Assembly (NCBI GenBank): GCA_024763035.1
Contig: JANTGG010000016.1
Coordinates: 1 to 34,774, forward strand
Direction of reading: 5' to 3'
DNA from: Desulfocapsa sp.
GTDB taxonomy: Bacteria > Desulfobacterota > Desulfobulbia > Desulfobulbales > Desulfocapsaceae
DNA length: 34,774 nucleotides
Both the position numbers and the translations under genes were made by a program. Shown in pieces: positions 17,362 to 29,585 of this stretch (position 1 is the stretch's first letter; the number at the start of each line of letters is the position of its first letter). A model generated the notes under the pieces. It saw only the letters and a list, made by a program, of their open reading frames with translations, was not told the origin of the DNA and did not search any database.

Positions 17362-17526
17362 TGGAGATTATGGAAAAGTATGGAAGATGGAGAGATGCCG
17401 CCCTGTTGGGCTGAAAAGATGGATGGCTACATGTTTCAGAAGTGATTCTCAAGTGTTGACAATCGCAAGGGCAGCTTCTATCATAGGGAAGTCAGTGGGT
17501 ATGTATACTATTTCTACAATGATTTG
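17362..17526 (+). other. 165-bp intergenic leader of the mla operon
   Basis: The gap between yejE and mlaE holds no gene I trust. A 61-codon open frame runs through it from inside yejE but matches nothing I know and contains the mla promoter. No terminator for yejE is evident; a short GCCC/GGGC stem near 17400 lacks a U tail. Confidence 0.5.
17456..17484 (+). promoter_or_regulatory. Sigma-70-type promoter of the mla operon
   Basis: A perfect -35 TTGACA (17456-17461) is followed, after 17 bp, by TATCAT (17479-17484), five of six matches to the -10 consensus. Transcription would start near 17491, leaving a leader of about 36 nt before mlaE. It is the best housekeeping promoter match seen in the window. 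Confidence 0.72.
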
Positions 17527-18330
17527 ATGGTACAGGGAATGCGGCAAAACTCCATAACACAACTCGGCAGCTTCGCTCTGAATGTGGTCAGTGACCTCGG
17601 ACGTATGGGGCTTTATCTGTTGCGCGCCGTTCGCGGCTGCTTCGGACGACCGTTTCGTTTCGCTGAGTTTCTGCGTCAGATGAACTTTATCGGTGTGGGC
17701 TCACTGGTGGTTATTTTTTTTACAGCCGCCTCCACCGGGATGGTTCTCGGGTTGCAGGGATATTATTCCCTCAATAAATTCGGTGCAGAGGGGATGCTTG
17801 GTTCTGCCGTTGCCCTTACTCTTATCATGGAGCTCGGACCGGTGCTTACTGCTTTGATGGTTGCCGGTCGTGCGGGCTCCGCCATGTGTGCAGAACTTGG
17901 TATTATGCGGATCTCCGAGCAGTTGGATGCTCTTGACTGTATGGCTGTCGATCCTTTTCGATACCTAATTTCACCAAAATTTCTGGCTGCCCTGATCTCT
18001 GTTCCGCTTCTTACTGTTGTTTTTGATGTTGTGGGGATTGCCGGCGGCTATATCGCCGGGGTACACCTTATGGGAGTCAGTCCCGGCAGTTACTACGACG
18101 GAATGCGGAGCAGTGTGACAAACCACGATATCTGGCTTGGAGTGGTCAAATCTTTTGTCTTCGGGCTGCTGGTTGTCTGGATCTGTACAGGACGCGGCTA
18201 TTTTGTCCACCAGATCAGAGGGGTTGGTTTCGGGGCGCAGAGTGTTTCCAAGGTAACCACACAGGCGGTTGTTTTTTCATCTATTTCCGTACTCGTTTTT
18301 GACTATCTGCTGACGGCTGTGCTGTTATGA
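17527..18330 (+). CDS. mlaE: Phospholipid-trafficking ABC permease MlaE
   Basis: An inner-membrane permease of about 267 residues of the Mla system, which moves mislocalised phospholipid between the outer and inner membranes. The MlaE/YrbE core is clear: G-M-V-L-G-L-Q-G-Y, M-E-L-G-P-V-L-T-A-L-M-V-A-G-R-A-G-S-A, A-E-L-G-I-M-R-I-S-E-Q-L-D-A-L, then M-A-V-D-P-F-R-Y-L-I-S-P. Five or six helices follow. I give the ATG at 17527; ATG 17539 aligns better with the E. coli MlaE N-terminus, and neither has a well-placed Shine-Dalgarno sequence. It is first in the operon after the 17456 promoter and overlaps mlaF by 4 bp. No STAS-domain MlaB is fused or adjacent. Confidence 0.92.
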   Translation: MVQGMRQNSITQLGSFALNVVSDLGRMGLYLLRAVRGCFGRPFRFAEFLRQMNFIGVGSLVVIFFTAASTGMVLGLQGYYSLNKFGAEGMLGSAVALTLIMELGPVLTALMVAGRAGSAMCAELGIMRISEQLDALDCMAVDPFRYLISPKFLAALISVPLLTVVFDVVGIAGGYIAGVHLMGVSPGSYYDGMRSSVTNHDIWLGVVKSFVFGLLVVWICTGRGYFVHQIRGVGFGAQSVSKVTTQAVVFSSISVLVFDYLLTAVLL

Positions 18331-19112
18331 GTGATATTGCAATAGAGTTTAAAGATATTGACAAGGCCTTTATGAAGGGCGATGGCAGCAGGCAGGTTAT
18401 CCTCGACCGGGTGAATTTTGCCATTCCGGCAGGAAAAACAACTGTTATTGCCGGAGGCAGCGGGCAGGGGAAGAGTGTTACTCTCAAGTTGATTTTAGGA
18501 CTTATGCAGCCTGATGCCGGACAGATATTTGTGGCTGGCAATGATTGTACCGGAATCCGGGGGCGGGCTCTTGCTGAGCTGCGTACTCGATTTGGCGTTC
18601 TTTTTCAGGGGGCTGCCCTGTTTGATTCGCTCACCGTTTTTGAAAATGTTGCCCTGCCCCTTCGGGAACGCACGAAAGGGTCTGAGGTGAAAATAAAAGA
18701 GCAGGTGCTGGCGTCACTGGAGCAGCTTGAACTTCTGGGGCATGAAGAAAAGTTTCCGGCACAGTTGAGCGGAGGCATGAAAAAGCGGGTCGGTCTGGCA
18801 AGGGCACTGCAGCTCAAACCTGAGATTATGCTTTTTGATGAGCCGACAACAGGGCTGGATCCCGTTATGACAACGGAGATCTATCACCTTTTTGCCAGGA
18901 CACAAAAGCAGGTCGGTTTTACTGCTGTTATTGTCAGCCATGATATTCCCAAGGTGTTTAATCTCGCTGACCAGGTTATTGTGCTGAATAACGGGGTGAT
19001 GGATGTGTTCGCGTCACCTGAGGCTATTCAGTGGTCGGAAAAACCCCACATTAAAGAGTTTGTGAAGACCACAATGGGGGAAATTTATCAGAGTCATTTG
19101 GTGGAACCATGA
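18327..19112 (+). CDS. mlaF: Phospholipid-trafficking ABC ATPase MlaF
   Basis: A 261-residue ATPase powering the MlaFED complex from the cytoplasm. Walker A is G-G-S-G-Q-G-K-S (43-50), the Q-loop region is L-F-Q-G-A-A-L-F-D (a typical MlaF/Ttg2A run), the signature is L-S-G-G-M (147-151) followed by K-K-R-V-G-L-A-R-A, Walker B is I-M-L-F-D-E (167-172) and the switch histidine is in V-S-H-D-I. Signature L-S-G-G-M-K-K-R-V is characteristic of the MCE-associated ATPases. ATGA overlaps at both ends couple it to mlaE and mlaD. Confidence 0.94.
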   Translation: MSDIAIEFKDIDKAFMKGDGSRQVILDRVNFAIPAGKTTVIAGGSGQGKSVTLKLILGLMQPDAGQIFVAGNDCTGIRGRALAELRTRFGVLFQGAALFDSLTVFENVALPLRERTKGSEVKIKEQVLASLEQLELLGHEEKFPAQLSGGMKKRVGLARALQLKPEIMLFDEPTTGLDPVMTTEIYHLFARTQKQVGFTAVIVSHDIPKVFNLADQVIVLNNGVMDVFASPEAIQWSEKPHIKEFVKTTMGEIYQSHLVEP

Positions 19113-19558
19113 AAAATAATGGTCTTGAGTTTTTAGTCGGTCTGTTTCTTATCGTCGGATTTGCAGCATTTGGGTATCTGGCACTGCAGCTCGGTGAAGT
19201 GTCATTTCTGGGAAGCAGTAAAAACTATACTATTACTGCTCAGTTTGATAATGTGTCCGGAGTGAAAAAAGGTGCCTCTGTTCAGGTTGCCGGGGTTGTC
19301 GTCGGGCAGGTCAGCAAAATATGGCTGGATGACGCCGGAGTTGCCAATGTTGATCTGTTTATAGGGAAAAGTCTTCAAGTGAGTGTTGATTCCATGGCTT
19401 CAGTGAAGTCTCAGGGGCTTATCGGTGACAAGTATATCCAGCTCACTCTGGGAGGGGATGATGAAAACTTTGCAGACGGTGGGGTCCTGACCGATACCGA
19501 GTCTTCCCTTGATATTGAGTCGTTAATCAGTAAATTTGCCTTTGGCGGTGTTGAGTAA
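19109..19558 (+). CDS. mlaD: MCE-domain lipid-binding protein MlaD
   Basis: A 149-residue protein anchored in the inner membrane by one N-terminal helix (about 5-28), with a single MCE domain (about 38-118) in the periplasm. The start, N-G-L-E-F-L-V-G-L-F, and the domain motifs Y-T-I-T-A-Q-F-D-N-V-S-G-V-K-K-G-A-S-V, V-A-G-V-V-V-G-Q-V and G-L-I-G-D-K-Y-I are typical of MlaD. Hexamers form the phospholipid channel above MlaE. Its length is a little short of E. coli MlaD (about 183), the difference falling at the C-terminus. It overlaps mlaF by 4 bp. Confidence 0.92.
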   Translation: MKNNGLEFLVGLFLIVGFAAFGYLALQLGEVSFLGSSKNYTITAQFDNVSGVKKGASVQVAGVVVGQVSKIWLDDAGVANVDLFIGKSLQVSVDSMASVKSQGLIGDKYIQLTLGGDDENFADGGVLTDTESSLDIESLISKFAFGGVE

Positions 19559-19606
19559 ACAAAATTACCAAATAAAAATAAACTCTGTGCTTGCTGTTAC
19601 GAACAA

Positions 19607-20425
19607 ATGAAAAAAATCTTTTTCTGCCTGATATTTCTGACCCTGTTTTTTGCTTCCGGCTGTGCCCGTAATGAAGGGGGGACAGTTCCCGATTCTGCTC
19701 CGGAACTCACTGCGGGAGAAATTGATGAGGACTTCGATGTTCCTGATGATACATTTTTCGATGACGAACCGGCGGAAACAGCTGCTGCGTACAATGACCC
19801 GCTGGAGCCGATGAACCGGGTGTTTTTTGAGTTCAATGACAAGCTCTATTTCTGGGTCTTAAAGCCGGTGGATAAGCTTTACAGTGCGGTCCTGCCTGCA
19901 GATGTCCGATTTTCCATCGGACATTTTTTCAGCAATCTCTCCTCGCCCATCAGTCTGCTGAACAACCTGCTGCAGGGGAATTTCACCGATGCAGGTATTG
20001 TTTTTTCCCGCTTTGTTATTAATTCAACCCTTGGAGTGCTTGGTCTGGGGGATCCGGCACTGATTGATTTCGGCTTGCAGCCAAAGCCTGAAGATTTCGG
20101 GCAGACGCTGGGGGTCTGGGGTGTGGGTGAGGGAGTGTATCTCTGCTGGCCTGTAATCGGACCTTCAAATGTCCGGGATTCATTTGGTTTTGCAGCTGAT
20201 GCCTATTCCCATCCAATTGTGTATTTCTATGACGACTTTGCGGTAACAATGTCTTCGTATACAGTAAAACAGGTGAATTTACTTTCATTAAATTCAGGGG
20301 CGTATGAAGAGTTGAAGAAGTATTCGCTCGATCCGTATATTTCCATGCGCCAGGTCTATCTTGATTACCGGAGACAAAAAATTCAGAACAAAACACCAAA
20401 GCAGAAGACAATCGATGGGTTTTGA
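19607..20425 (+). CDS. mlaA: Outer-membrane lipoprotein MlaA (VacJ)
   Basis: A 272-residue lipoprotein. The signal peptide ends in a lipobox F-A-S-G-C with the lipidated cysteine at 19. The mature protein begins with about 45 acidic residues (E-I-D-E-D-F-D-V), then the MlaA domain: Y-N-D-P-L-E-P-M-N-R-V-F-F-E-F-N-D, F-F-S-N-L-S-S-P, N-L-L-Q-G-N, R-F-V-I-N-S-T-L-G-V-L-G-L-G-D-P-A, and E-D-F-G-Q-T-L-G-V-W-G-V-G-E-G. MlaA removes phospholipid from the outer leaflet and passes it to MlaC. Co-location with mlaEFDC contrasts with E. coli, where mlaA is elsewhere. The 48-bp gap before it shows no clear ribosome site. Confidence 0.93.
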   Translation: MKKIFFCLIFLTLFFASGCARNEGGTVPDSAPELTAGEIDEDFDVPDDTFFDDEPAETAAAYNDPLEPMNRVFFEFNDKLYFWVLKPVDKLYSAVLPADVRFSIGHFFSNLSSPISLLNNLLQGNFTDAGIVFSRFVINSTLGVLGLGDPALIDFGLQPKPEDFGQTLGVWGVGEGVYLCWPVIGPSNVRDSFGFAADAYSHPIVYFYDDFAVTMSSYTVKQVNLLSLNSGAYEELKKYSLDPYISMRQVYLDYRRQKIQNKTPKQKTIDGF

Positions 20426-20461
20426 TTCGTTGTAATAAGAACCATCAATGAGGATTTGCCG

Positions 20462-21067
20462 ATGAACATAAAAGGTGTGACCTGCTTTTTCTTTTTTCTG
20501 ACTGTCATGAGTAGTGTTTATGTCAGCGGCGCAGCGGGACCGACGGATGTGCTGAGGCCTACGCTTACTCAAATTGCTGCGCTGATTGATGATCAGGAAC
20601 TTGCCGGAGATGAGCATAAGGATGAGCGAAGAGCGAACATTATGGCAGTGGTGTCTGAGGGTTTTGATTTCGCGGAAATGGCAAAACGAACAGTGGGGCG
20701 TACCTGGAAGTCCGTAGATAAACAGCAGCGGGCTCATTTTGTGGAGCTCTTTACCAAGCTTCTTGAAAACGCCTATATAGGAAAACTTGAGAGCTATACC
20801 GGCACAACCACGGAATATGTGGGGGAGAAGATAAAAGGCTCAAAGGCAAAAGTTTCCACAATACTCAATGAAAAGGGTGCTGCCATTCCTGTGAATTACA
20901 TCATGCTGAAGAAAGGTGCGGTCTGGAAGGTATATGATATTAATATTGAAGGAGTGAGCCTGGTCAGGAATTACAGGGAGCAGTTTAAGTCGATTCTCAG
21001 AAAAAATAAATTTGACGGGCTTGTAAAGACACTGGAAGAAAAGAATGCCGGTTTTGCGGCTGAATAG
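20462..21067 (+). CDS. mlaC: Periplasmic phospholipid carrier MlaC
   Basis: A protein of about 201 residues with a cleavable signal peptide (helix about 7-24, ending near S-G-A-A-G). The mature part is a Ttg2D/MlaC domain: P-T-L-T-Q-I-A-A-L, V-S-E-G-F-D-F-A-E-M-A-K-R-T-V-G-R-T-W-K, F-V-E-L-F-T-K-L-L-E-N-A-Y, and at the end W-K-V-Y-D-I-N-I-E-G-V-S-L-V-R-N-Y-R. MlaC shuttles phospholipid between MlaA and MlaD. I start at ATG 20462, where GAGG lies about 8 nt upstream, and not at the TTG two codons earlier. Confidence 0.92.
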   Translation: MNIKGVTCFFFFLTVMSSVYVSGAAGPTDVLRPTLTQIAALIDDQELAGDEHKDERRANIMAVVSEGFDFAEMAKRTVGRTWKSVDKQQRAHFVELFTKLLENAYIGKLESYTGTTTEYVGEKIKGSKAKVSTILNEKGAAIPVNYIMLKKGAVWKVYDINIEGVSLVRNYREQFKSILRKNKFDGLVKTLEEKNAGFAAE

Positions 21068-21691: not shown

Positions 21692-21880
21692 ATGGCTCTG
21701 CCAAAAAGAAGACATTCACACGCGCGTACCCGCCGAAGAAGATCCCATGATGCATTGAAGGCACCAGGTCTTTCCACATGTTCAGAATGTGGTGAACCAA
21801 AACAGGCCCATCGTCTCTGCCCGAGTTGTGGTATGTACAAGGGACGTTCGGTGTACAGTCTGGATGCTGAATTAGAGTAG
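21692..21880 (+). CDS. rpmF: Ribosomal protein bL32
   Basis: A 62-residue large-subunit protein. The start A-L-P-K-R-R-H-S-H-A-R-T-R-R-R-R-S-H is diagnostic and a zinc ribbon is formed by C30, C33, C43 and C46. A good ribosome site (TAGGAG) lies 7 nt upstream. It begins the rpmF-plsX-fabH arrangement widely conserved in bacteria. The yceD (DUF177) gene that often precedes rpmF is not here; a 184-bp gap takes its place, so the promoter should lie in that gap. The zinc-binding form implies no zinc-independent variant at this locus. Confidence 0.97.
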   Translation: MALPKRRHSHARTRRRRSHDALKAPGLSTCSECGEPKQAHRLCPSCGMYKGRSVYSLDAELE

Positions 21881-21890
21881 GAAGTCAGTT

Positions 21891-22910
21891 GTGCATATTG
21901 CCTTGGATGCCATGGGAGGAGACCATGGACCTGAAAAACTGATTGCCGGGGCAATACAGGCCGTGCAGGAGGAGGATCTGCAGGTAAGTCTTGTGGGAGA
22001 TGAGCAGGTTATCAGGGAAACTCTCAGAGGATTGTCCCCCGATCCTGCTCTGTTAACGAGACTGCCCGTAGTCCACACATCCGAAGTGATCGAAATGGGG
22101 GAATCCCCCGTTGAGGCCATCCGCAAGAAAAAGAATGCGTCTGTAATGGTCGCGTTTGACCTTGTCAGGAAAAAAAAGGCTGACGGGGCAGTCAGTGCCG
22201 GAAATTCTGGTGCGACAATGGCAGCCGCCGTCAGAAAACTGGGAAGGATAAAATCAGTATCCAGACCTGGTATCGCCAGTGCTTTTCCAACCCTGAAACA
22301 ACCCGTCGTCATGATGGACGTGGGTGCCAATGTGGACTGCCGTCCCCAGCACCTGCTTCAGTTTGCCATCATGGCATCAGCTTTTTCTCAAATCTTTAAA
22401 ATCAAGACGCCCCGTGTCGGACTGCTGAGTATCGGTGAAGAAGCCGGAAAAGGAAATCAGCTTGTCAAAGAAACCCACGCCATGCTCAGGGAAAGTTCTT
22501 TGAACTTTATTGGGAATGTTGAGGGGAGAGATATCTGGCAGGGCAATGTGGACGTGATTGTCTGTGACGGATTCATCGGCAATGTTTGTTTGAAAGTCAG
22601 CGAAGGTCTGGTTGAAGCTGCAGGGCAGATGATACGTGAGGGCATTATGAGCTCACTATCTGCTAAACTTGGGTACTGGTTTGCCCGCCCTGTGTTTCGT
22701 CGTCTGAAAAAACGGGTCGATTATGCCGAATATGGCGGGGCACCGCTTCTTGGCATTAACGGGACAGGGCTTGTCTGCCATGGAAAATCCAGCAGTGCCG
22801 CCATCAAGAATGCCCTTTTGGAAGCTACCAAAATTGTTGAGATAAAAGTGAATGAAAAGATAGAAAGCACCATTGCCGCAAACTTGAACATTACTCTGGA
22901 GAATATCTGA
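21891..22910 (+). CDS. plsX: Phosphate acyltransferase PlsX
   Basis: A 339-residue soluble, membrane-associated enzyme that converts acyl-ACP to acyl-phosphate, the donor for PlsY in phospholipid synthesis. Family marks are I-A-L-D-A-M-G-G-D-H-G-P at the N-terminus, A-V-S-A-G-N-S-G-A-T-M-A (about 103-114), M-M-D-V-G-A-N-V-D-C and Y-G-G-A-P-L-L-G-I-N-G. Its start is a GTG with AGGA 8 nt upstream. It begins 10 bp after rpmF and shares one base (TGATG) with fabH, so it is tightly coupled to fatty acid initiation. Confidence 0.96.
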   Translation: MHIALDAMGGDHGPEKLIAGAIQAVQEEDLQVSLVGDEQVIRETLRGLSPDPALLTRLPVVHTSEVIEMGESPVEAIRKKKNASVMVAFDLVRKKKADGAVSAGNSGATMAAAVRKLGRIKSVSRPGIASAFPTLKQPVVMMDVGANVDCRPQHLLQFAIMASAFSQIFKIKTPRVGLLSIGEEAGKGNQLVKETHAMLRESSLNFIGNVEGRDIWQGNVDVIVCDGFIGNVCLKVSEGLVEAAGQMIREGIMSSLSAKLGYWFARPVFRRLKKRVDYAEYGGAPLLGINGTGLVCHGKSSSAAIKNALLEATKIVEIKVNEKIESTIAANLNITLENI

Positions 22911-23884
22911 TGGGTGCGGTTATTCTCGGAACCGGCTCGTGCCTTCCCCGGCGTGTCCTCACAAATCAGGATCTCGAGGAAATTGTTGATACCAATGACG
23001 AGTGGATTCTCAGTCGGACAGGGATTTCCACAAGACGCAAAAGCAGTAAAGGGGAAGAAACCTATCGCCTGGCCACAGTTGCCGCCGAGAACGCCATGCA
23101 GATGGCAGGAGTTACGGCAGATGAGATTGATCTGATTATTGTTGCCACAATCAGTTCCCATATGACCATGCCTTCCTGTGCCTGTTTTGTGCAAAAAGAG
23201 CTTGGTGCGAATAAGGCCTTTGCCTACGATGTGAATGCGGCGTGTTCCGGTTTTCTCTTTGGTATGGATAATGCCGACAAATATCTTCGTTGCGAAAAGG
23301 GAGCAAAAATATTGCTTATTGGTGCTGAGACCCTCTCTGGTCGGACGAACTGGGAGGATCGTAATACCTGTATTCTTTTTGGAGATGGTGCCGGTGCGGT
23401 GGTAATGGAATACGAGGATGGAGCACGGGGAATAATAGGCTCCAACCTTCGTTCAGACGGCAGCCTCTGGAATCTTCTGTATATGCACAGTGCCCCCTCA
23501 AGTAATCCCGATATCTTTCAGGCAGACAATCCCGGTTCCCATATTATGATGGAAGGGCGCGAGGTCTTTAAATATGCTGTGAAGGCAATGGAGGGTGCTG
23601 TGCAAGAGTTGCTTGAACGGGAGAATGTGAGTATCTCTTCAGTGGGACTTATGATTCCGCATCAGGCAAATATCCGCATTCTTAAAAAACTTGTTTCCCG
23701 AATAGGAATTGAGGAAGAAAAAGTATTCATAAACGTTCAGAAATATGGTAATACTTCCGCTGCCTCAATTCCCATAGCCCTTGATGAAGCAAACAGGGCA
23801 GGACGATTGCAACCCGATGATTTACTCTTGGTCTGTTCCTTTGGTGGCGGATTCACCTGGGGAGCGGCTTTGCTTAGATGGTAA
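22910..23884 (+). CDS. fabH: 3-oxoacyl-ACP synthase III (FabH)
   Basis: A 324-residue condensing enzyme that starts fatty acid synthesis from acyl-CoA and malonyl-ACP. The catalytic triad is complete: C112 in N-A-A-C-S-G-F, H251 in I-P-H-Q-A-N-I-R-I and N281 in Y-G-N-T-S-A-A-S. The N-terminal G-T-G-S-C-L-P and W-I-L-S-R-T-G-I are typical. Straight- or branched-chain primer preference cannot be read from sequence alone. It shares one base with plsX and is followed after 12 bp by an acyl-CoA dehydrogenase gene and not the usual fabD. Confidence 0.96.
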   Translation: MGAVILGTGSCLPRRVLTNQDLEEIVDTNDEWILSRTGISTRRKSSKGEETYRLATVAAENAMQMAGVTADEIDLIIVATISSHMTMPSCACFVQKELGANKAFAYDVNAACSGFLFGMDNADKYLRCEKGAKILLIGAETLSGRTNWEDRNTCILFGDGAGAVVMEYEDGARGIIGSNLRSDGSLWNLLYMHSAPSSNPDIFQADNPGSHIMMEGREVFKYAVKAMEGAVQELLERENVSISSVGLMIPHQANIRILKKLVSRIGIEEEKVFINVQKYGNTSAASIPIALDEANRAGRLQPDDLLLVCSFGGGFTWGAALLRW

Positions 23885-23896
23885 ATAGGAGACCCG

Positions 23897-25051
23897 ATGG
23901 ATTATTTTCTTTCTGAAGAACAGGATATGATTGTTGAGATTGCTCAGCAGATCACCAATGAACGTATTATCCCCAATCGTGCAGAGCTTGATGAAAAAGA
24001 TGAATTTCCCCGTGAAATTCTTAACAGCATGGCGCAGGCGGATCTCTTTGGAGTGCCGATTCCCGAGGAATACGGCGGATTCGGTGGCGGTTGCATGGAG
24101 ATCGTTCTCGCCCTTGAACAGCTTGGACGCGGTTGTATCGGTATCGGCACCGCATTTGCTGCCAGTGCTCTTGGTATCTATCCCATTATTATCTCCGGCT
24201 CCGAGGAGCTAAAACAAAAATATCTCCCTCCTGTTGCAGAAGGAAAAAAGTTTGCAGCATTTGGTCTGACCGAGGCAAATGCCGGTTCGGATGCTTCAGG
24301 TATCCAGACAACAGCTGTTCTTGATGGTGATGAGTGGGTGTTAAACGGCACCAAGCAGTGGATTACAAATGGCGGAGAGGCTGAAATTTACACGGTGGTT
24401 GCCATCACGGACCGCTCAAAAGGACCACGTGGCGCTTCCATGTTTGTTGTAGAGGCGGGAGATCCGGGATTCACCTGTGGACCCAAGGAAAAGAAAATGG
24501 GGATTCGGGCATCGTCCACCACAGAGCTGATTTTCAAGGATTGCCGGATTCCAAAAGACCGGCTCATCGGCAGAAAGGGAACCGGATTTATTACAGTGAT
24601 GAAAACCCTTGACTCATCGCGTCCGGGAATCGCTGCCCTCGGGCTCGGTATCGGTCAGGCTTGTGTTGATGAAGCGGCATCGTATGCCAAACAGCGTGTT
24701 CAGTTCGGCAAGCCGATCATCTCTTTTCAGGCAGTACAGCATATGCTGGCAGATATGGCGATCCAGCTTGAAGCATCCCGGGCGCTGGTGTATGCCTCGG
24801 CAAGGCACATAGACGCTCATCCAAAGGATATGTCCAAGGTGTCATCCATGTGTAAGGTGATGGCAACGGATATGGCAATGAAGGTGAGTACTGATGCTGT
24901 GCAGGTAATGGGCGGATATGGGTATATGCGGGAGTATCCCGTTGAAAAAATGATGCGGGATGCAAAAATTCTGCAGATTTATGAAGGGACGAATCAGGTT
25001 CAGCGAAATGTTATCGGGCAGGAACTCAATAAAGAGTACTCCCGCAAGTAG
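23897..25051 (+). CDS. Acyl-CoA dehydrogenase
   Basis: A 384-residue FAD enzyme of the short/medium-chain acyl-CoA dehydrogenase type. Visible are the FAD/substrate motif F-G-L-T-E-A-N-A-G-S-D (about 122-132), K-Q-W-I-T-N-G, and the C-terminal V-Q-V-M-G-G-Y-G-Y-M-R-E-Y-P with catalytic E363 in I-Y-E-G-T-N-Q-V-Q-R. The full family length is present. Such enzymes exchange electrons with ETF, and etfB follows 14 bp later. It lies within a fatty acid synthesis operon, so it may run as an enoyl reductase, or take part in an ETF-linked side reaction; ordinary beta-oxidation is the default. Acyl-CoA or acyl-ACP substrate is not resolved. Confidence 0.92.
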   Translation: MDYFLSEEQDMIVEIAQQITNERIIPNRAELDEKDEFPREILNSMAQADLFGVPIPEEYGGFGGGCMEIVLALEQLGRGCIGIGTAFAASALGIYPIIISGSEELKQKYLPPVAEGKKFAAFGLTEANAGSDASGIQTTAVLDGDEWVLNGTKQWITNGGEAEIYTVVAITDRSKGPRGASMFVVEAGDPGFTCGPKEKKMGIRASSTTELIFKDCRIPKDRLIGRKGTGFITVMKTLDSSRPGIAALGLGIGQACVDEAASYAKQRVQFGKPIISFQAVQHMLADMAIQLEASRALVYASARHIDAHPKDMSKVSSMCKVMATDMAMKVSTDAVQVMGGYGYMREYPVEKMMRDAKILQIYEGTNQVQRNVIGQELNKEYSRK

Positions 25052-25065
25052 CAGGAAAGAGACTT

Positions 25066-25845
25066 ATGAAAATTATTGTTTGTGTAAAGCAGGTCCCTGA
25101 TGCAAAGGATGTTCGCCTGGACCCGGAAACCAATACCCTTGCACGGGAAGGGGTTCAGTCCATTATGAATCCCTACGACCAGCATGCCGTTGAAGAGGCT
25201 GTCAGTCTTAAAGAGCAGCTTGGCGGAGAGGTGACAGTTCTGACCATGGGACCTCCACAGGCTGAAGAGGTTCTGAAACAAGCGATTTCCTGTGGTGCAG
25301 ATCACGGAGTGCTGGTTTCAGATCGAGCCTTTGCCGGTGCTGACACATGGGCAACATCCTATACCCTTGCCAAGGCAGTTGAAAAGATAGGCACGTTTGA
25401 TCTTATCCTCTGCGGCAAACAGGCAATAGACGGAGATACGGCACAGGTTGGACCTGGTCTTGCCGTTCGACTCGGCATCCCATTTATCACCTGTATTCAG
25501 AAGGTGCGGGAAGCCAGTGAGACTGAGATTGTCATGGAACGGATGATGGATGACGGATACGATGTTGTAGCTGTTTCCTATCCTGCCCTGCTAACGGTGG
25601 TAAAAGATCTGAATGTGCCGCGGGTGCCTTCTCTGAAAGGAAAGATGAAGGCCAAGAAAGCCGAGTTCACTGTTCTCTCAGCAGCGGATATCGGAGCTGA
25701 AACTGCCTGTATCGGGCTTGCAGGATCCCCAACTCAGGTTGTCGATGTCTTTCCTCCGAAACCGCGTGGTGAACGTTCCATATTAACCGGTACTCTGGAA
25801 GAACAGATCGAGCAACTTGCCGAAAAACTGGCAGTATATCTCTGA
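25066..25845 (+). CDS. etfB: Electron transfer flavoprotein beta subunit
   Basis: A 259-residue ETF beta subunit. The N-terminus reads I-I-V-C-V-K-Q-V-P-D, and N-P-Y-D-Q-H-A-V-E-E-A follows. The nucleotide-site motif is D-G-D-T-A-Q-V-G-P (122-130) within G-K-Q-A-I-D. In ETFs such as human and Paracoccus this site departs from D-G-D-T-A-Q-V-G-P and holds AMP; the form seen here resembles electron-bifurcating ETFs, where it binds a second FAD. It pairs with the EtfA encoded 154 bp downstream. A bifurcating role is an inference from this motif and the ferredoxin domain on EtfA. Confidence 0.93.
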   Translation: MKIIVCVKQVPDAKDVRLDPETNTLAREGVQSIMNPYDQHAVEEAVSLKEQLGGEVTVLTMGPPQAEEVLKQAISCGADHGVLVSDRAFAGADTWATSYTLAKAVEKIGTFDLILCGKQAIDGDTAQVGPGLAVRLGIPFITCIQKVREASETEIVMERMMDDGYDVVAVSYPALLTVVKDLNVPRVPSLKGKMKAKKAEFTVLSAADIGAETACIGLAGSPTQVVDVFPPKPRGERSILTGTLEEQIEQLAEKLAVYL

Positions 25846-25999
25846 TACCGGCGGTGATGAACGGTAAACCCGCACTTTTTTCAGTATCCCCTTGAGGGAG
25901 CGGATAAGTAGCTTCGTACCGGTTAGGCAGCATGGATAAAGTACACTGCAAAACTTTTATAAAATATACCTTGTCTTGAGTAAGGTTAAGGGTTGAATC
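25846..25999 (+). other. 154-bp gap between etfB and etfA
   Basis: This is an unusually long break between two genes that normally touch. It holds no gene (longest start-to-stop frame 12 codons), two TACCGG copies (near 25847 and 25917) and an AT-rich tract near 25955-25970. No clear promoter or U-tailed hairpin is present. An AGGG ribosome site precedes etfA. Confidence 0.5.
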
Positions 26000-27187
26000 A
26001 TGTTAATTGTAAATAGTGAACTGTGTGTGGGCTGCGGTCTATGCGAGGATACCTGTGCTTTTGGTGCCATTGAAGTTCAGGACGGTCTTGCTGTGGTTGG
26101 TGATGCCTGTACACTGTGCGGATCGTGTGTTGATGTCTGTGAGGTCGAGGCACTTGTTCTTGAGGATGTGGAAAAAAGTGTGCAGGTGGATCTTGACAGC
26201 TGGAGCGGTATCTGGGTGTACTGTGAATTCAGGGCCGGACATCTGGCACCTGTTTCCCTGGAGTTACTCGGCGCTGGTAGAAAACTGGCAGATGCCCGGG
26301 GGGTGAAACTTTCCGCGGTTCTCATCGGAGCAGATACAAAAGAAACGGCCGAACAGCTGATCGGCTATGGTGCAGATGTCGTTTATCGAGTGGATTCTCC
26401 TGCACTGCAGTATTTCACAGACGAAGCCTACGGTGCGGTACTGACTGATCTTATTCAAATCCATAAGCCGGAAGTCGTTCTTGCGGGTGCAACAGCCATT
26501 GGTCGCTCATTTATCCCGGGAGTGGCAAACAGTCTTGGTGCAGGTCTTACCGCGGATTGCACAGAACTTGCCATTCGCGAAGATGATGGGGCGCTTTTGC
26601 AGACCCGTCCGGCATTTGGCGGCAATATCATGGCGACCATTGTCTGTCCCAGTTCCCGTCCACAGATGTCCACGGTGCGGCCCAAAGTGATGAAGCCCCT
26701 TGAGTTTGATGCAGCACGGACCGGTGTTATTGAAGATGTTGAACCTGCACCGGAACAGCTTGCAACGAAAGTCAGGGTGCTGGAGTCTGTACTCTCTGAT
26801 CAGGATGATGTGAATATTCAGGAAGCAGATATTCTGGTTGGTGGCGGCAGGGGGCTTGAGAGTGAAAAAGGCTTTGAGCTGATCCGGAATCTTGCAGAAT
26901 CCATGGATGCTGCAGTGTCTGCCAGTCGGGCAGTGGTGGATTCGGGATGGATAGGGTATCCCCACCAGGTGGGGCAGACCGGTAAAACTGTAGCCCCCAA
27001 ACTCTATGTTGCCTGCGGCATCTCCGGAGCTATTCAGCATGTTGCCGGTATGCAGTCATCAGAAACCATCGTTGCCATTAACAGAGATAAGGAGGCACCG
27101 ATATTTGATGTCGCTGATTATGGCATTGTAGGAGATCTGTTTGAAATCATCCCCCTGCTTATTACAAAAATTGAAGGAAATCGCTGA
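26000..27187 (+). CDS. etfA: ETF alpha subunit with N-terminal 2[4Fe-4S] ferredoxin domain
   Basis: A 395-residue fusion. Residues 1-60 are a bacterial ferredoxin domain with two complete cluster motifs: C9, C12, C15, C19 and C37, C40, C43, C47. A standard EtfA follows: an N-terminal domain (W-V-Y-C-E onward), then the FAD domain with V-G-G-G-R-G-L, S-R-A-V-V-D-S-G-W, Q-V-G-Q-T-G-K-T-V-A-P and A-C-G-I-S-G-A-I-Q-H. Plain EtfA is about 315 residues. Ferredoxin-fused EtfA is known from anaerobes, for example CarE of the bifurcating caffeyl-CoA reductase complex. It probably links acyl-CoA dehydrogenase to low-potential electron carriers. fabG follows after 2 bp. Confidence 0.94.
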   Translation: MLIVNSELCVGCGLCEDTCAFGAIEVQDGLAVVGDACTLCGSCVDVCEVEALVLEDVEKSVQVDLDSWSGIWVYCEFRAGHLAPVSLELLGAGRKLADARGVKLSAVLIGADTKETAEQLIGYGADVVYRVDSPALQYFTDEAYGAVLTDLIQIHKPEVVLAGATAIGRSFIPGVANSLGAGLTADCTELAIREDDGALLQTRPAFGGNIMATIVCPSSRPQMSTVRPKVMKPLEFDAARTGVIEDVEPAPEQLATKVRVLESVLSDQDDVNIQEADILVGGGRGLESEKGFELIRNLAESMDAAVSASRAVVDSGWIGYPHQVGQTGKTVAPKLYVACGISGAIQHVAGMQSSETIVAINRDKEAPIFDVADYGIVGDLFEIIPLLITKIEGNR

Positions 27188-27189
27188 AC

Positions 27190-27933
27190 ATGAGTGATGA
27201 AAAAAAAGTTGCACTGGTGACCGGTGGAAGCCGTGGAATAGGCAGGGCAATCTGTATCAGGCTCGCAGCAATGGGCATACATGTCTATATTAATTACGTG
27301 TCAAACAGCGATGCTGCTGATGTCACCCGGAAAATGATTACTGATGGTGGTGGAACTGCAGACACTATCGCCTTTAATGTCTCCGATACTGCTGAAACTG
27401 AAGCTGCGATAAAGGGGCTTATCAAAGAAGCCGGGGCGTTGAATATCTTGGTCAATAATGCAGGAATTACCCGGGATGGTTTGATGGCCCGGATGAAGGA
27501 AGCTGACTGGGATGCAGTGATTGATACCAATCTCAAAGGTTCTTTTATCTGTGCAAAAGCTGCTGCCCGTTCCATGATGAAAAAGCGATGGGGACGCATT
27601 GTAAATATAAGCTCTGTTATTGGTTTTGCAGGAAATGCGGGACAGGTGAATTATGCTGCCGCAAAAGCGGGAATGACCGGATTGACAAAATCCATGGCCC
27701 GCGAATTTGCCGCTAGAAATATCACGGTCAATGCCGTGGCACCCGGCTATGTTGTAACTGATATGACAAAAGATCTGCCGGAAGCAATTCAGGAAAAGAT
27801 TAAAGCTGAAATTCCCCTTGGCAGTCTGGGGAGTCCCGAAGATATCGCTGCGGCGGTTGCTTATCTTGTAGCGGATGAAGCGTCTTATGTCACGGGCAAC
27901 ACCATTCATGTGAACGGCGGCATGTATATGTGA
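27190..27933 (+). CDS. fabG: 3-oxoacyl-ACP reductase FabG
   Basis: A 247-residue short-chain dehydrogenase that reduces 3-oxoacyl-ACP with NADPH. It shows the nucleotide motif T-G-G-S-R-G-I-G (11-18), N-N-A-G (89-92) and the catalytic set N114, S142, Y155 and K159 (Y-A-A-A-K). The end, V-T-G-N-T-I-H-V-N-G-G-M-Y-M, is the common FabG C-terminus. It starts 2 bp after etfA, so it shares that transcript, and precedes acpP by 111 bp. Confidence 0.95.
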   Translation: MSDEKKVALVTGGSRGIGRAICIRLAAMGIHVYINYVSNSDAADVTRKMITDGGGTADTIAFNVSDTAETEAAIKGLIKEAGALNILVNNAGITRDGLMARMKEADWDAVIDTNLKGSFICAKAAARSMMKKRWGRIVNISSVIGFAGNAGQVNYAAAKAGMTGLTKSMAREFAARNITVNAVAPGYVVTDMTKDLPEAIQEKIKAEIPLGSLGSPEDIAAAVAYLVADEASYVTGNTIHVNGGMYM

Positions 27934-28044
27934 TTTACAGTTTGTCTGCAGTCTGGTAAGAAGAGATACGAAAGGTCAAATTTAGTGAAAGAGTCGCCTG
28001 GCGACATTATCCATACAAATAGAAATACCCACAGGAGATAGAAA

Positions 28045-28275
28045 ATGGCAATTGAACAGCAGATGGTTGATATTATTGTTGAGCAGTTGAGCGTTGATAA
28101 GGAAAAAGTTGTCCCCGGAGCATCTTTTGTTGATGATCTTGGTGCCGATTCCCTTGATCTGGTTGAGCTGATTATGGCGATGGAAGAAGAGTTTGATGTT
28201 GAGATTCCTGATGAGGAAGCTGAAAAAATCGCAACGGTTCAAAACGCAATTGATTTTGTAAATAACCTGAAATAA
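28045..28275 (+). CDS. acpP: Acyl carrier protein
   Basis: A 76-residue acidic protein that carries growing acyl chains on a phosphopantetheine arm attached to S36 in the motif [10 protein letters not shown]. Length, charge and helices match AcpP; the N-terminal A-I-E-Q-Q-M-V-D is a minor variant. A strong AGGAGA ribosome site precedes it, fitting its high abundance. It sits between fabG and fabF, and a hairpin follows its stop codon. Confidence 0.97.
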
Positions 28276-28282
28276 ATTTTTC

Positions 28283-28302
28283 AGGAACGCTGAGTCGTTC
28301 CT
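28283..28302 (+). other. Intercistronic hairpin after acpP
   Basis: AGGAACG (28283-28289) and CGTTCCT (28296-28302) pair perfectly around a 6-base loop, 7 nt after the acpP stop. No U run follows, so it is not a standard terminator. It may protect the 3' end of a processed acpP message or lower expression of fabF relative to acpP; either is inference. Confidence 0.5.
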
Positions 28303-28340
28303 CGAAACTCCCCAATCAGAGAATTATTAAAGAGGAGTTC

Positions 28341-29585
28341 ATGGTGAAACGAAGAGTTGTGGTCACCGGTATAGGTCTGGTGACCCCTTTGGGCACAGGA
28401 ACAGAAAAAACCTGGAACAATATCTGTGCCGGCGTCAGCGGTGTGGGGACCATTACCCGATTTGATGCGAGCAGTTTTGCAGCTCAGATCGCAGCAGAGG
28501 TACGGGATTTCCGGCAGGAAGAGTATTTTGACAGGAAGGCTGCCAAACATCTCGATCTGTTTGTTCAATATGGGATTGTTGCCGCAAAGTTTGCTGTGGA
28601 AGCTTCCGGGGTGGAGATTACGGATGAAAACTGCGAACGTGTTGGCGTTATAACCGGTTGCGGAATGGGTGGTTTACCGACCATTGAGAAAAATCATAGT
28701 GTCTTTCTCGATCGTGGAGCAAGGAGAATTTCTCCTTTTTTTATTCCCATGGCAATTCCAAATATGCCTTCGGGGCATATTTCCATGCAGATTGGAGCCA
28801 AAGGGCCGAATCTTGCTCTTTCCACAGCCTGTGCTGCGGGAACGCATGCCGTTGGTGAAGCGTATCGCTCGATAGTATACGGAGACAGCGATGTTGTGGT
28901 CACAGGCGGGACTGAATCGGTTGTCTGCCCCACTGGAGTTGGCGGATTTGCCGCAATGAAGGCACTTTCAACCCGGAATGATGAGCCGGAGAAAGCTTCC
29001 CGTCCCTTTGACAAAGATCGTGACGGCTTTGTGATGGCGGAAGGATCCGGGATGCTGGTGTTGGAAGAACTGGAACATGCTCTGGCACGGGGTGCTGATA
29101 TCCATGCCGAGCTGATTGGATTTGGTGCAAGCAGTGATGCCTATCATATTGCTGCTCCTCCCGAAAACGGGGAGGGGGCGGTTCGCTGTATGCGGATGGC
29201 GTTGCGTGATGCCGGTATGGTTCCTGAGGATATTGATTACATTAATGCCCACGGAACGTCCACACCGTTGAATGATCGCGGTGAAACCCAGGCGATCAAA
29301 ACAGTTTTTGGCAAGCATGCTGCAAAACTTGCGATCAGTTCCACAAAATCAATGACTGGACATATGCTTGGTGCTGCAGGTGGTATTGAAGCCGCCTTTA
29401 CGGCGCTGAGTATCAGAGATCAGATAGCTCCGCCTACAATTAATCTTGACACCCCCAGTCCAGAATGTGATCTTGATTATGTTCCCAATCAGGCAAGAAA
29501 GATGACAATACGGGCGGCGCTCTCCAACTCCTTCGGATTTGGTGGAACGAATGGTGTTATTATAATGAAGCGGTTTGCTGAATAG
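28341..29585 (+). CDS. fabF: 3-oxoacyl-ACP synthase II (FabF)
   Basis: A 414-residue elongating condensing enzyme. The catalytic C164 lies in S-T-A-C-A-A-G-T-H-A, with H304 in N-A-H-G-T-S-T, K336 in S-T-K-S-M-T-G-H and H341. The C-terminus N-S-F-G-F-G-G-T-N-G is typical. The ATG at 28341 is only 3 nt from AGAGGAG, and the next codon, GTG 28344, has better spacing (6 nt), so the protein may start one residue later. This is the last fatty acid gene of the run, 32 bp before rpiB. Confidence 0.96.
   Translation: MVKRRVVVTGIGLVTPLGTGTEKTWNNICAGVSGVGTITRFDASSFAAQIAAEVRDFRQEEYFDRKAAKHLDLFVQYGIVAAKFAVEASGVEITDENCERVGVITGCGMGGLPTIEKNHSVFLDRGARRISPFFIPMAIPNMPSGHISMQIGAKGPNLALSTACAAGTHAVGEAYRSIVYGDSDVVVTGGTESVVCPTGVGGFAAMKALSTRNDEPEKASRPFDKDRDGFVMAEGSGMLVLEELEHALARGADIHAELIGFGASSDAYHIAAPPENGEGAVRCMRMALRDAGMVPEDIDYINAHGTSTPLNDRGETQAIKTVFGKHAAKLAISSTKSMTGHMLGAAGGIEAAFTALSIRDQIAPPTINLDTPSPECDLDYVPNQARKMTIRAALSNSFGFGGTNGVIIMKRFAE

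Follow-up and report, generated by a model that had tools for sequence, protein, structure and literature searches.

The last step of each round of fatty acid elongation, the reduction of an enoyl-acyl carrier protein (enoyl-ACP), is generally ascribed to four enzyme classes: FabI, FabL and FabV, which share the short-chain dehydrogenase/reductase (SDR) fold, and FabK, a TIM-barrel flavoprotein. A different kind of flavin enzyme, the acyl-coenzyme A (acyl-CoA) dehydrogenase paired with an electron-transferring flavoprotein (Etf), acts as an energy saver in fermenting bacteria, and its relative CarCDE serves respiration by reducing an aromatic acrylate bound to CoA. Here, we analyze a stretch of 34,774 nucleotides from Desulfocapsa sp. 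(GenBank assembly GCA_024763035.1, contig JANTGG010000016.1, positions 1 to 34,774 of the forward strand; the whole stretch is called the window below), in which an acyl-CoA dehydrogenase gene (acd) and two Etf genes (etfB and etfA) lie inside a fatty acid synthesis block. Judged from its sequence, its gene context and its distribution among genomes, the acd-etfB-etfA module quite probably encodes an enoyl-ACP reductase that has the acyl-CoA dehydrogenase fold and is fed by an Etf of the bifurcating type; that the substrate would be ACP-bound, that the enzyme would run in the reductive direction and that its Etf would bifurcate is what we infer. Apparently, primary fatty acid synthesis has taken up a complex of this kind as one more class of enoyl-ACP reductase. 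No description of the module was found in the open-access literature, as judged from titles and the openings of abstracts.

Make-up of the module and its described relatives

The features of the block, as obtained from open reading frames and family scans, are the following:

21692..21880, + strand: rpmF, ribosomal protein L32, at the head of the block (PF01783, 87 bits)
21891..22910, + strand: plsX, phosphate acyltransferase (TIGR00182, 373 bits, cut-off 243)
22910..23884, + strand: fabH, ketoacyl-ACP synthase III (TIGR00747, 380 bits, cut-off 292)
23897..25051, + strand: acd, flavoprotein of 384 amino acids with the acyl-CoA dehydrogenase fold, proposed enoyl-ACP reductase (PF00441/02771/02770; best solved relative 5ol2)
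25066..25845, + strand: etfB, Etf beta subunit of the bifurcating type by best match (CarD of 6fah, 248 bits; motif DGDTAQVG)
25846..25999, + strand: gap of 154 base pairs (bp) between etfB and etfA (without an Rfam family; predicted fold -34.6 kcal/mol)
26000..27187, + strand: etfA, Etf alpha subunit with an N-terminal domain carrying two [4Fe-4S] cysteine motifs (CarE of 6fah, 435 bits; Fer4 and ETF domains)
27190..27933, + strand: fabG, ketoacyl-ACP reductase (TIGR01830, 325 bits, cut-off 298)
28045..28275, + strand: acpP, acyl carrier protein (NF002149, 118 bits, cut-off 106)
28341..29585, + strand: fabF, ketoacyl-ACP synthase II (TIGR03150, 655 bits, cut-off 494)

The order rpmF-plsX-fabH-acd-etfB-etfA-fabG-acpP-fabF on a single strand, which an earlier, sequence-only reading of this DNA had claimed, is confirmed by the open reading frames, the sequence and the family scans; rpiB, glyA and nrdR follow, the last two being named from sequence without a family scan. 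The spacings given in that reading are exact, namely 12 bp between fabH and acd, 14 bp between acd and etfB, 154 bp between etfB and etfA, and 2 bp between etfA and fabG, and the start of fabH shares one base with the stop of plsX. In keeping with that reading, tblastn with FabD, FabZ and FabI of Escherichia coli as queries (E 1e-5) gave no separate match in the window once overlapping weaker matches had been removed.

The acyl-CoA dehydrogenase fold of Acd is clear from its sequence: all three domains of this family are present in a Pfam scan, and the best solved relative is Bcd of Clostridioides difficile (5ol2, 409 bits). Glu363 of Acd occupies the position of the catalytic base, and Glu198 and Glu346 occupy the Etf-docking positions of Bcd (E198 and D345), so that the catalytic glutamate and the docking acids are common to both proteins; in PMC5691135, mutation of E198 and D345 indicates that both matter for the contact with EtfA. 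The two systems differ in that Bcd acts on crotonyl-CoA, whereas the window Acd belongs to another group and lies among ACP genes. FabI, FabL, FabV and FabK catalyze the step that is proposed for Acd, but are unrelated to it in fold and cofactor chain, and at the thresholds used, Acd matched none of these four families, only acyl-CoA dehydrogenase families. The NCBIfam models of the acryloyl-CoA reductase AcrABC are matched below their cut-offs (AcrC 418 of 640, AcrB 239 of 475 and AcrA 375 of 600 bits), and the three proteins of the module are therefore placed outside these named families. A precedent for the same fold acting on carrier-protein-bound substrates is provided by MbtN, RedW and PigA, acyl-ACP or peptidyl carrier protein dehydrogenases of secondary metabolism according to their NCBIfam names, although Acd scores only 84–265 bits with their models, far below the cut-offs of 500–700; none of the three is known to be part of primary fatty acid synthesis.

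The electron-transfer partner is best matched by the Etf of electron-bifurcating CarDE type. EtfB is closest to CarD (6fah, 248 bits), followed by 7qh2 (the lactate dehydrogenase Etf), 4kpu, 5ol2 and 7koe (220–242 bits), which come from bifurcating systems, and far behind by human Etf (102 bits) and 5ow0 (75 bits); it carries the sequence DGDTAQVG, presumably a mark of bifurcation. The match of EtfA to CarE spans residues 5–391 of 395 (435 bits) and includes the N-terminal part, in which there are two C-x2-C-x2-C-x3-C motifs. CarCDE thus has the same three-part make-up and supplies the best solved matches of both Etf subunits, down to the [4Fe-4S] N-terminal domain of CarE, but it differs from the module in that CarC is not the closest relative of Acd (313 bits) and in that it is encoded outside any fatty acid operon.

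Conservation of acd within fatty acid synthesis clusters

We counted acd as linked when at least two core fatty acid genes share its strand and are no more than 9 kb away. In a first set, obtained by scanning the contigs of named genomes for Acd and keeping the best 80 of 592 confirmed loci, 55 of the 80 are linked, and by record title these reach beyond Desulfobulbaceae and other “deltaproteobacteria” to Nitrospirota (L048, L050), Margulisiibacteriota (L056) and Dehalococcoidia (L065, L068), as well as to an Omnitrophota-titled record (L054) in which the linked acd is placed after acpP-fabF; the 25 unlinked loci, some of them on short contigs, include other Nitrospirota, Clostridia, an Elusimicrobium and Bacteroidales. 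The second set is a sample of the phylum to which the window belongs, 197 genomes drawn evenly with 90% completeness asked, for each of which up to 9 (Acd), 12 (FabI) and 11 (FabK) first-look candidates were scored. An Acd ortholog (E 1e-125) occurs in 97 of these genomes and in 32 of the 79 families, as a single such match in 96 of the 97 carriers, and acd is linked in 88 of the 96 neighborhoods that were fetched (all carriers except the window). Two of the eight unlinked loci (G202 and G077) have rpmF adjoining, the fetched stretch ending shortly after etf, and the other six belong to a single family, f28, whose genomes (G062, G098, G125, G149, G193 and G233; L205–L210) measure 1.6–1.8 Mb, are listed as 100% complete and are without a recognized enoyl-ACP reductase.

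Gene order is thus conserved well beyond chance, and the combination that had been named as telling against the module, a normal fabI or fabK elsewhere together with an insertion not shared by relatives, is not observed, the insertion being strongly conserved. It is true that acyl-CoA dehydrogenases are common enzymes of beta-oxidation, and such a gene might hitch-hike in a housekeeping operon as a conserved neighbor that plays no part in elongation; the occurrence of acd in so many families and in several phyla, at a largely constant place, nearly always in single copy and with the catalytic residue intact, makes this the least probable of the explanations considered, with next to nothing left for it.

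The description of acd as occupying the position where fabD normally lies is misleading, since 31 of the 88 linked clusters of the phylum sample contain both genes, and the idea that fabD has been replaced is ruled out by the same count together with the presence of FabD in 79 of 80 acd-carrying genomes; FabZ is likewise present in 79 of the 80, which comprise the window genome, 8 others of its order, 52 without a FabI-like or FabK-like match and 19 others. In the window genome (G000), FabD appears elsewhere as a partial match (G000:C73:16047-16730, 195.6 bits, cut-off 260.9). FabD-like acyltransferase domains also occur in its contigs C28, C159 and C3, within open frames of 1886, 1587 and 2718 amino acids that are possibly large synthases of the polyketide or polyunsaturated acid type.

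The neighbors of acd bear on a second explanation, raised in outline by the sequence-only reading, in which Acd-EtfBA would reduce short enoyl-CoAs such as crotonyl- or acryloyl-CoA to tune the primers of FabH, or would recycle acyl chains, while FabL or a FabI-like or FabK-like protein elongates. It is true that acd comes after fabH in the window and in its close relatives, and the closest characterized relatives of Acd use short acyl-CoAs. Across the 88 linked loci, however, fabH is found within 9 kb of acd in only 34 (a divergent FabH could be missed), as against 82 for fabG, 81 for fabF and 85 for either of the two, and many linked loci have the order rpmF-plsX-acd or rpmF-acd, which leaves no space for fabH.

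The Etf genes are less constant than acd. Among the 88 linked loci, 52 contain etf (4 of them together with fabD) and 36 do not (27 with fabD), suggesting a constant Acd whose electron donor can be encoded elsewhere. Where the Etf proteins are encoded in linked loci of either set, DGDT(A/G)QVG is present in 93 of 97 EtfB, and both [4Fe-4S] motifs are present in all 84 EtfA of at least 280 residues out of 95, the other 11 being fragments, some of which (e.g., in G194, G173, G126 and G099) may be without the iron–sulfur (Fe-S) domain. An enoyl-ACP reductase that works without bifurcation, its Etf being reduced by reduced nicotinamide adenine dinucleotide (NADH) or by ferredoxin in a simple two-electron step, or another donor serving where the operon has no etf, is the most serious of the other explanations, which we rate at perhaps one chance in a few. 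The clusters without etf, the four EtfB without the motif and the fragmentary EtfA speak in its favor, whereas the two cluster motifs in every full-length EtfA, and the far better match of the window's EtfB and EtfA to CarD and CarE than to non-bifurcating Etf (for EtfB, more than twice the score of the human protein), argue for a bifurcating partner.

The Acd proteins themselves were placed in a midpoint-rooted FastTree phylogeny that included 139 of the 144 linked Acds, five having been dropped for length along with Acd-like matches with stops from genomes without acd. The 139 linked and 20 unlinked Acds fall together, and 41 others lie outside, with Bcd. In this Acd group, the catalytic glutamate is kept in all 159 members, and both Etf-docking positions are acidic in all 159. 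At 20 positions, the group differs in residue frequency by at least 0.8 from the 41 other Acds; these group-specific residues and the net charge (-2.5 vs -4.8) were considered as a sign of ACP binding and yielded nothing firm.

Other enoyl-ACP reductases in carriers and their relatives

FabI is clearly present, with a score of 237 bits or more against NF005717 (a cut set after a score gap from 237 to 169.5 bits had been seen), in 36 of the 197 phylum genomes, in 2 of the 97 with acd vs 34 of the 100 without it (Fisher p 1e-9). Since the genomes are related, FabI was also counted by family, and the near exclusion persists (1 of 32 families with acd vs 17 of 47 without, p 7e-4). FabK above its curated cut-off occurs in three genomes, none of them a carrier, and FabV in one, which is a carrier. 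Reductase-less genomes were called from the lack of a FabI-like match at 1e-34, of a FabK-like match at 1e-45 and of FabV; genomes with FabK-like matches were not counted as such because a true FabK can score below the cut-off, and FabL is expected to be caught with the FabI model, which matched all 14 FabL-encoding genomes described below. By these measures, no FabI/FabL-like, FabK-like or FabV match is found in 51 of the 97 carriers, 43 of which have acd in the cluster. Among these 43, G072, G126, G214 and G222 are listed as single contigs of 99% completeness; G019 and G029, chromosome records with no completeness given, also have a linked acd and no recognized reductase. G016, another chromosome record, was discarded as a clean case because it encodes FabV, and G205, of the window's order, on one contig and 100% complete, has a linked acd-etfBA and, in place of FabI/FabL-like proteins or FabV, a FabX-like match only.

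Since so many carriers with the same arrangement show no recognized enzyme for the last step, it is suggested that the module performs it. The near exclusion of FabI would not be expected if Acd only served FabH primers, these carriers also count against such a role, and primer or chain tuning, the weaker of the two roles in the sequence-only reading, accordingly seems rather improbable to us, even with FabL in close relatives counted in its favor.

A number of results nonetheless weigh against an enoyl-ACP reductase role. The families nearest to Acd are CoA enzymes; the 41 Acds outside the group mostly keep the same residues (the catalytic glutamate in 40, the docking acids in 35 and 38); and support for the Acd group in the tree is weak (0.374). 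In the six f28 genomes, acd-etfBA stands outside a fatty acid cluster, and the 36 linked clusters without etf have already been described. FabK-like proteins are found in 36 of 97 carriers at 1e-45 (55 of 100 genomes without acd) and in 28 vs 53 at 1e-60, and at 1e-85, the association is gone (13 of 97 vs 15 of 100), although many FabK-like matches may be nitronate monooxygenases (NMOs). Finally, 23 of the 100 genomes without acd likewise have no FabI-like, FabK-like or FabV match (G050, G052, G055, G057, G067, G069, G074, G092, G104, G111, G127, G153, G165, G170, G176, G183, G189, G204, G210, G215, G218, G226 and G229), and missing matches are therefore supportive and no proof of a missing reductase. 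Acd-like proteins at 1e-60 occur in 17 of these 23, at 30 loci of 2.7–4.1 kb each, none in a fatty acid cluster and three adjoining a fabG-like gene; further unrecognized reductases probably exist.

The close relatives of the window add to these adverse points. In a set of 38 genomes, made up of that of the window and 37 from the named Acd loci, the 18 whose Acd is most similar (at least 75% identity; mostly Desulfobulbaceae/Desulfocapsa by title) all have a match to the FabI model at 1e-30, and the other 20 have none. The matches in the 16 regions that were read are of two main kinds, FabL and a divergent FabI-like protein, with one other SDR. Fourteen of the 18 encode a FabL ortholog (at least 62%), and none is found in G000, G001, G004 and G031; one FabL that was checked scores 370 bits with NF005975 (cut-off 328) and 289 bits with the Bacillus subtilis FabL structure 3oic. 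In the relatives that have it, the module probably shares the enoyl-reduction step with FabL as a second reductase, and Bacillus subtilis likewise has FabI and FabL side by side. The proposal of a dehydrogenase driven backward by an Etf as enoyl reductase has comparative support from operon conservation, the near exclusion of FabI and the many carriers without another reductase, and is qualified by FabL in the nearest genomes and by the 23 genomes that have neither acd nor a recognized reductase.

For the window genome, which is 92% complete, the search that the sequence-only reading had called for gave a mixed answer: neither FabI nor FabK was detected above its curated cut-off, and FabV and a FabL ortholog were not found either, but two divergent proteins are present. 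The first is a FabI-like SDR with a Y-x6-K motif (133.5 bits, cut-off 337), for which the PDB offers FabI as the closest match, with 119 bits (L089:7806-8621, at G000:C5:31814; other such loci are L092, L093, L097 and L101). In four of eight fetched regions, the window genome's not among them, this protein lies within a cluster with OleABCD-like, phytoene-desaturase-like and ketoacyl synthase/ACP genes, as named by reading the sequences, which hints at a specialized pathway, and it stays under consideration as the window genome's reductase. The cluster resembles those of Desulfotalea and Kuenenia that are linked to polyunsaturated hydrocarbons in the part of PMC2649909 available to us; in that part, FabI of Desulfotalea psychrophila is said to sit in an unrelated gene cluster, and the words “electron transfer” do not occur.

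The second protein is a FabX-like relative of FabK (178.5 bits, cut-off 453); that it is a normal FabK is ruled out by this score together with its C-x3-C-x3-C spacing. It scores alike with FabK (7l00, 138.6 bits) and with 7e1q (137.4 bits), which we take to be Helicobacter pylori FabX. The cysteines of FabX, C300, C304 and C308, have the same spacing (PMC8626469). FabX-like matches of 172–194 bits occur in the genomes of 16 of the 18 close relatives, with none in G001 and a partial one in G031; the organisms are presumed strict anaerobes, in which the oxygen acceptor of Helicobacter pylori FabX would be unavailable to the window's protein (L001:1447-2448, at G000:C9:22943). With both proteins present, the module is the best, not the sole, candidate for the reductase of the window genome.

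FabX is also the model for a reverse role, in which Acd would oxidize acyl-ACP to 2-enoyl-ACP on the way to unsaturated fatty acids. Like the module, it is a flavoprotein wired to Fe-S centers in fatty acid synthesis, but according to PMC8626469, it has the NMO/FabK fold and oxidizes acyl-ACP using oxygen. The FabX-like protein that is separately present in the window genome could be set to the credit of this role. Anaerobes must indeed make unsaturated chains without oxygen, but oxidation with a low-potential bifurcating Etf would run uphill. The scarcity of FabI in carriers would also be left unexplained, and we regard the reverse role as very improbable.

A possible electron path and its consequences

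If the module is the enoyl-ACP reductase, FabH and FabF would condense, FabG would reduce and FabZ, encoded elsewhere in the genome, would dehydrate, after which the flavin adenine dinucleotide (FAD) of Acd, reloaded by EtfBA, would supply the electrons for the reduction of trans-2-enoyl-ACP to acyl-ACP. As EtfBA is of the CarDE type, NADH is the most likely donor, with ferredoxin co-reduced by flavin-based bifurcation: one electron would pass through the alpha-FAD to Acd, while the other would reach ferredoxin by way of the beta-FAD and both [4Fe-4S] clusters in EtfA. Electrons are donated by NADH near -300 mV and taken up by enoyl thioesters near 0 mV, a drop that FabI wastes, and bifurcation would therefore let each round of elongation regain some of the energy that is given off as heat with FabI-type reductases. 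That a large share of the anaerobic bacteria of the Desulfobacterota type, together with lineages of Nitrospirota, Omnitrophota, Margulisiibacteriota and Dehalococcoidia, use such a bifurcating enoyl-ACP reductase in building their membranes, so that each elongation round reduces ferredoxin, is a broader claim, for and against which we see the chances as about equal.

Should the enoyl-ACP reductase role hold, it would explain lipid synthesis in many anaerobes without a recognizable FabI, FabK, FabL or FabV, and would give a better annotation to many genes now labeled “acyl-CoA dehydrogenase”; with bifurcation, energy would be conserved within the lipid synthesis of energy-poor organisms, and an anabolic pathway would be partly energy-conserving.

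Two features of the window outside the coding part of the module may be added. The interval between etfB and etfA is the sole long gap of the module, and its folding energy is a raw predicted value; no RNA family scores above the Rfam gathering score in the window. Upstream of the fatty acid block, at 17524–21067, lie the phospholipid-transport genes mlaE, an ABC ATPase gene, mlaD, mlaA and mlaC.

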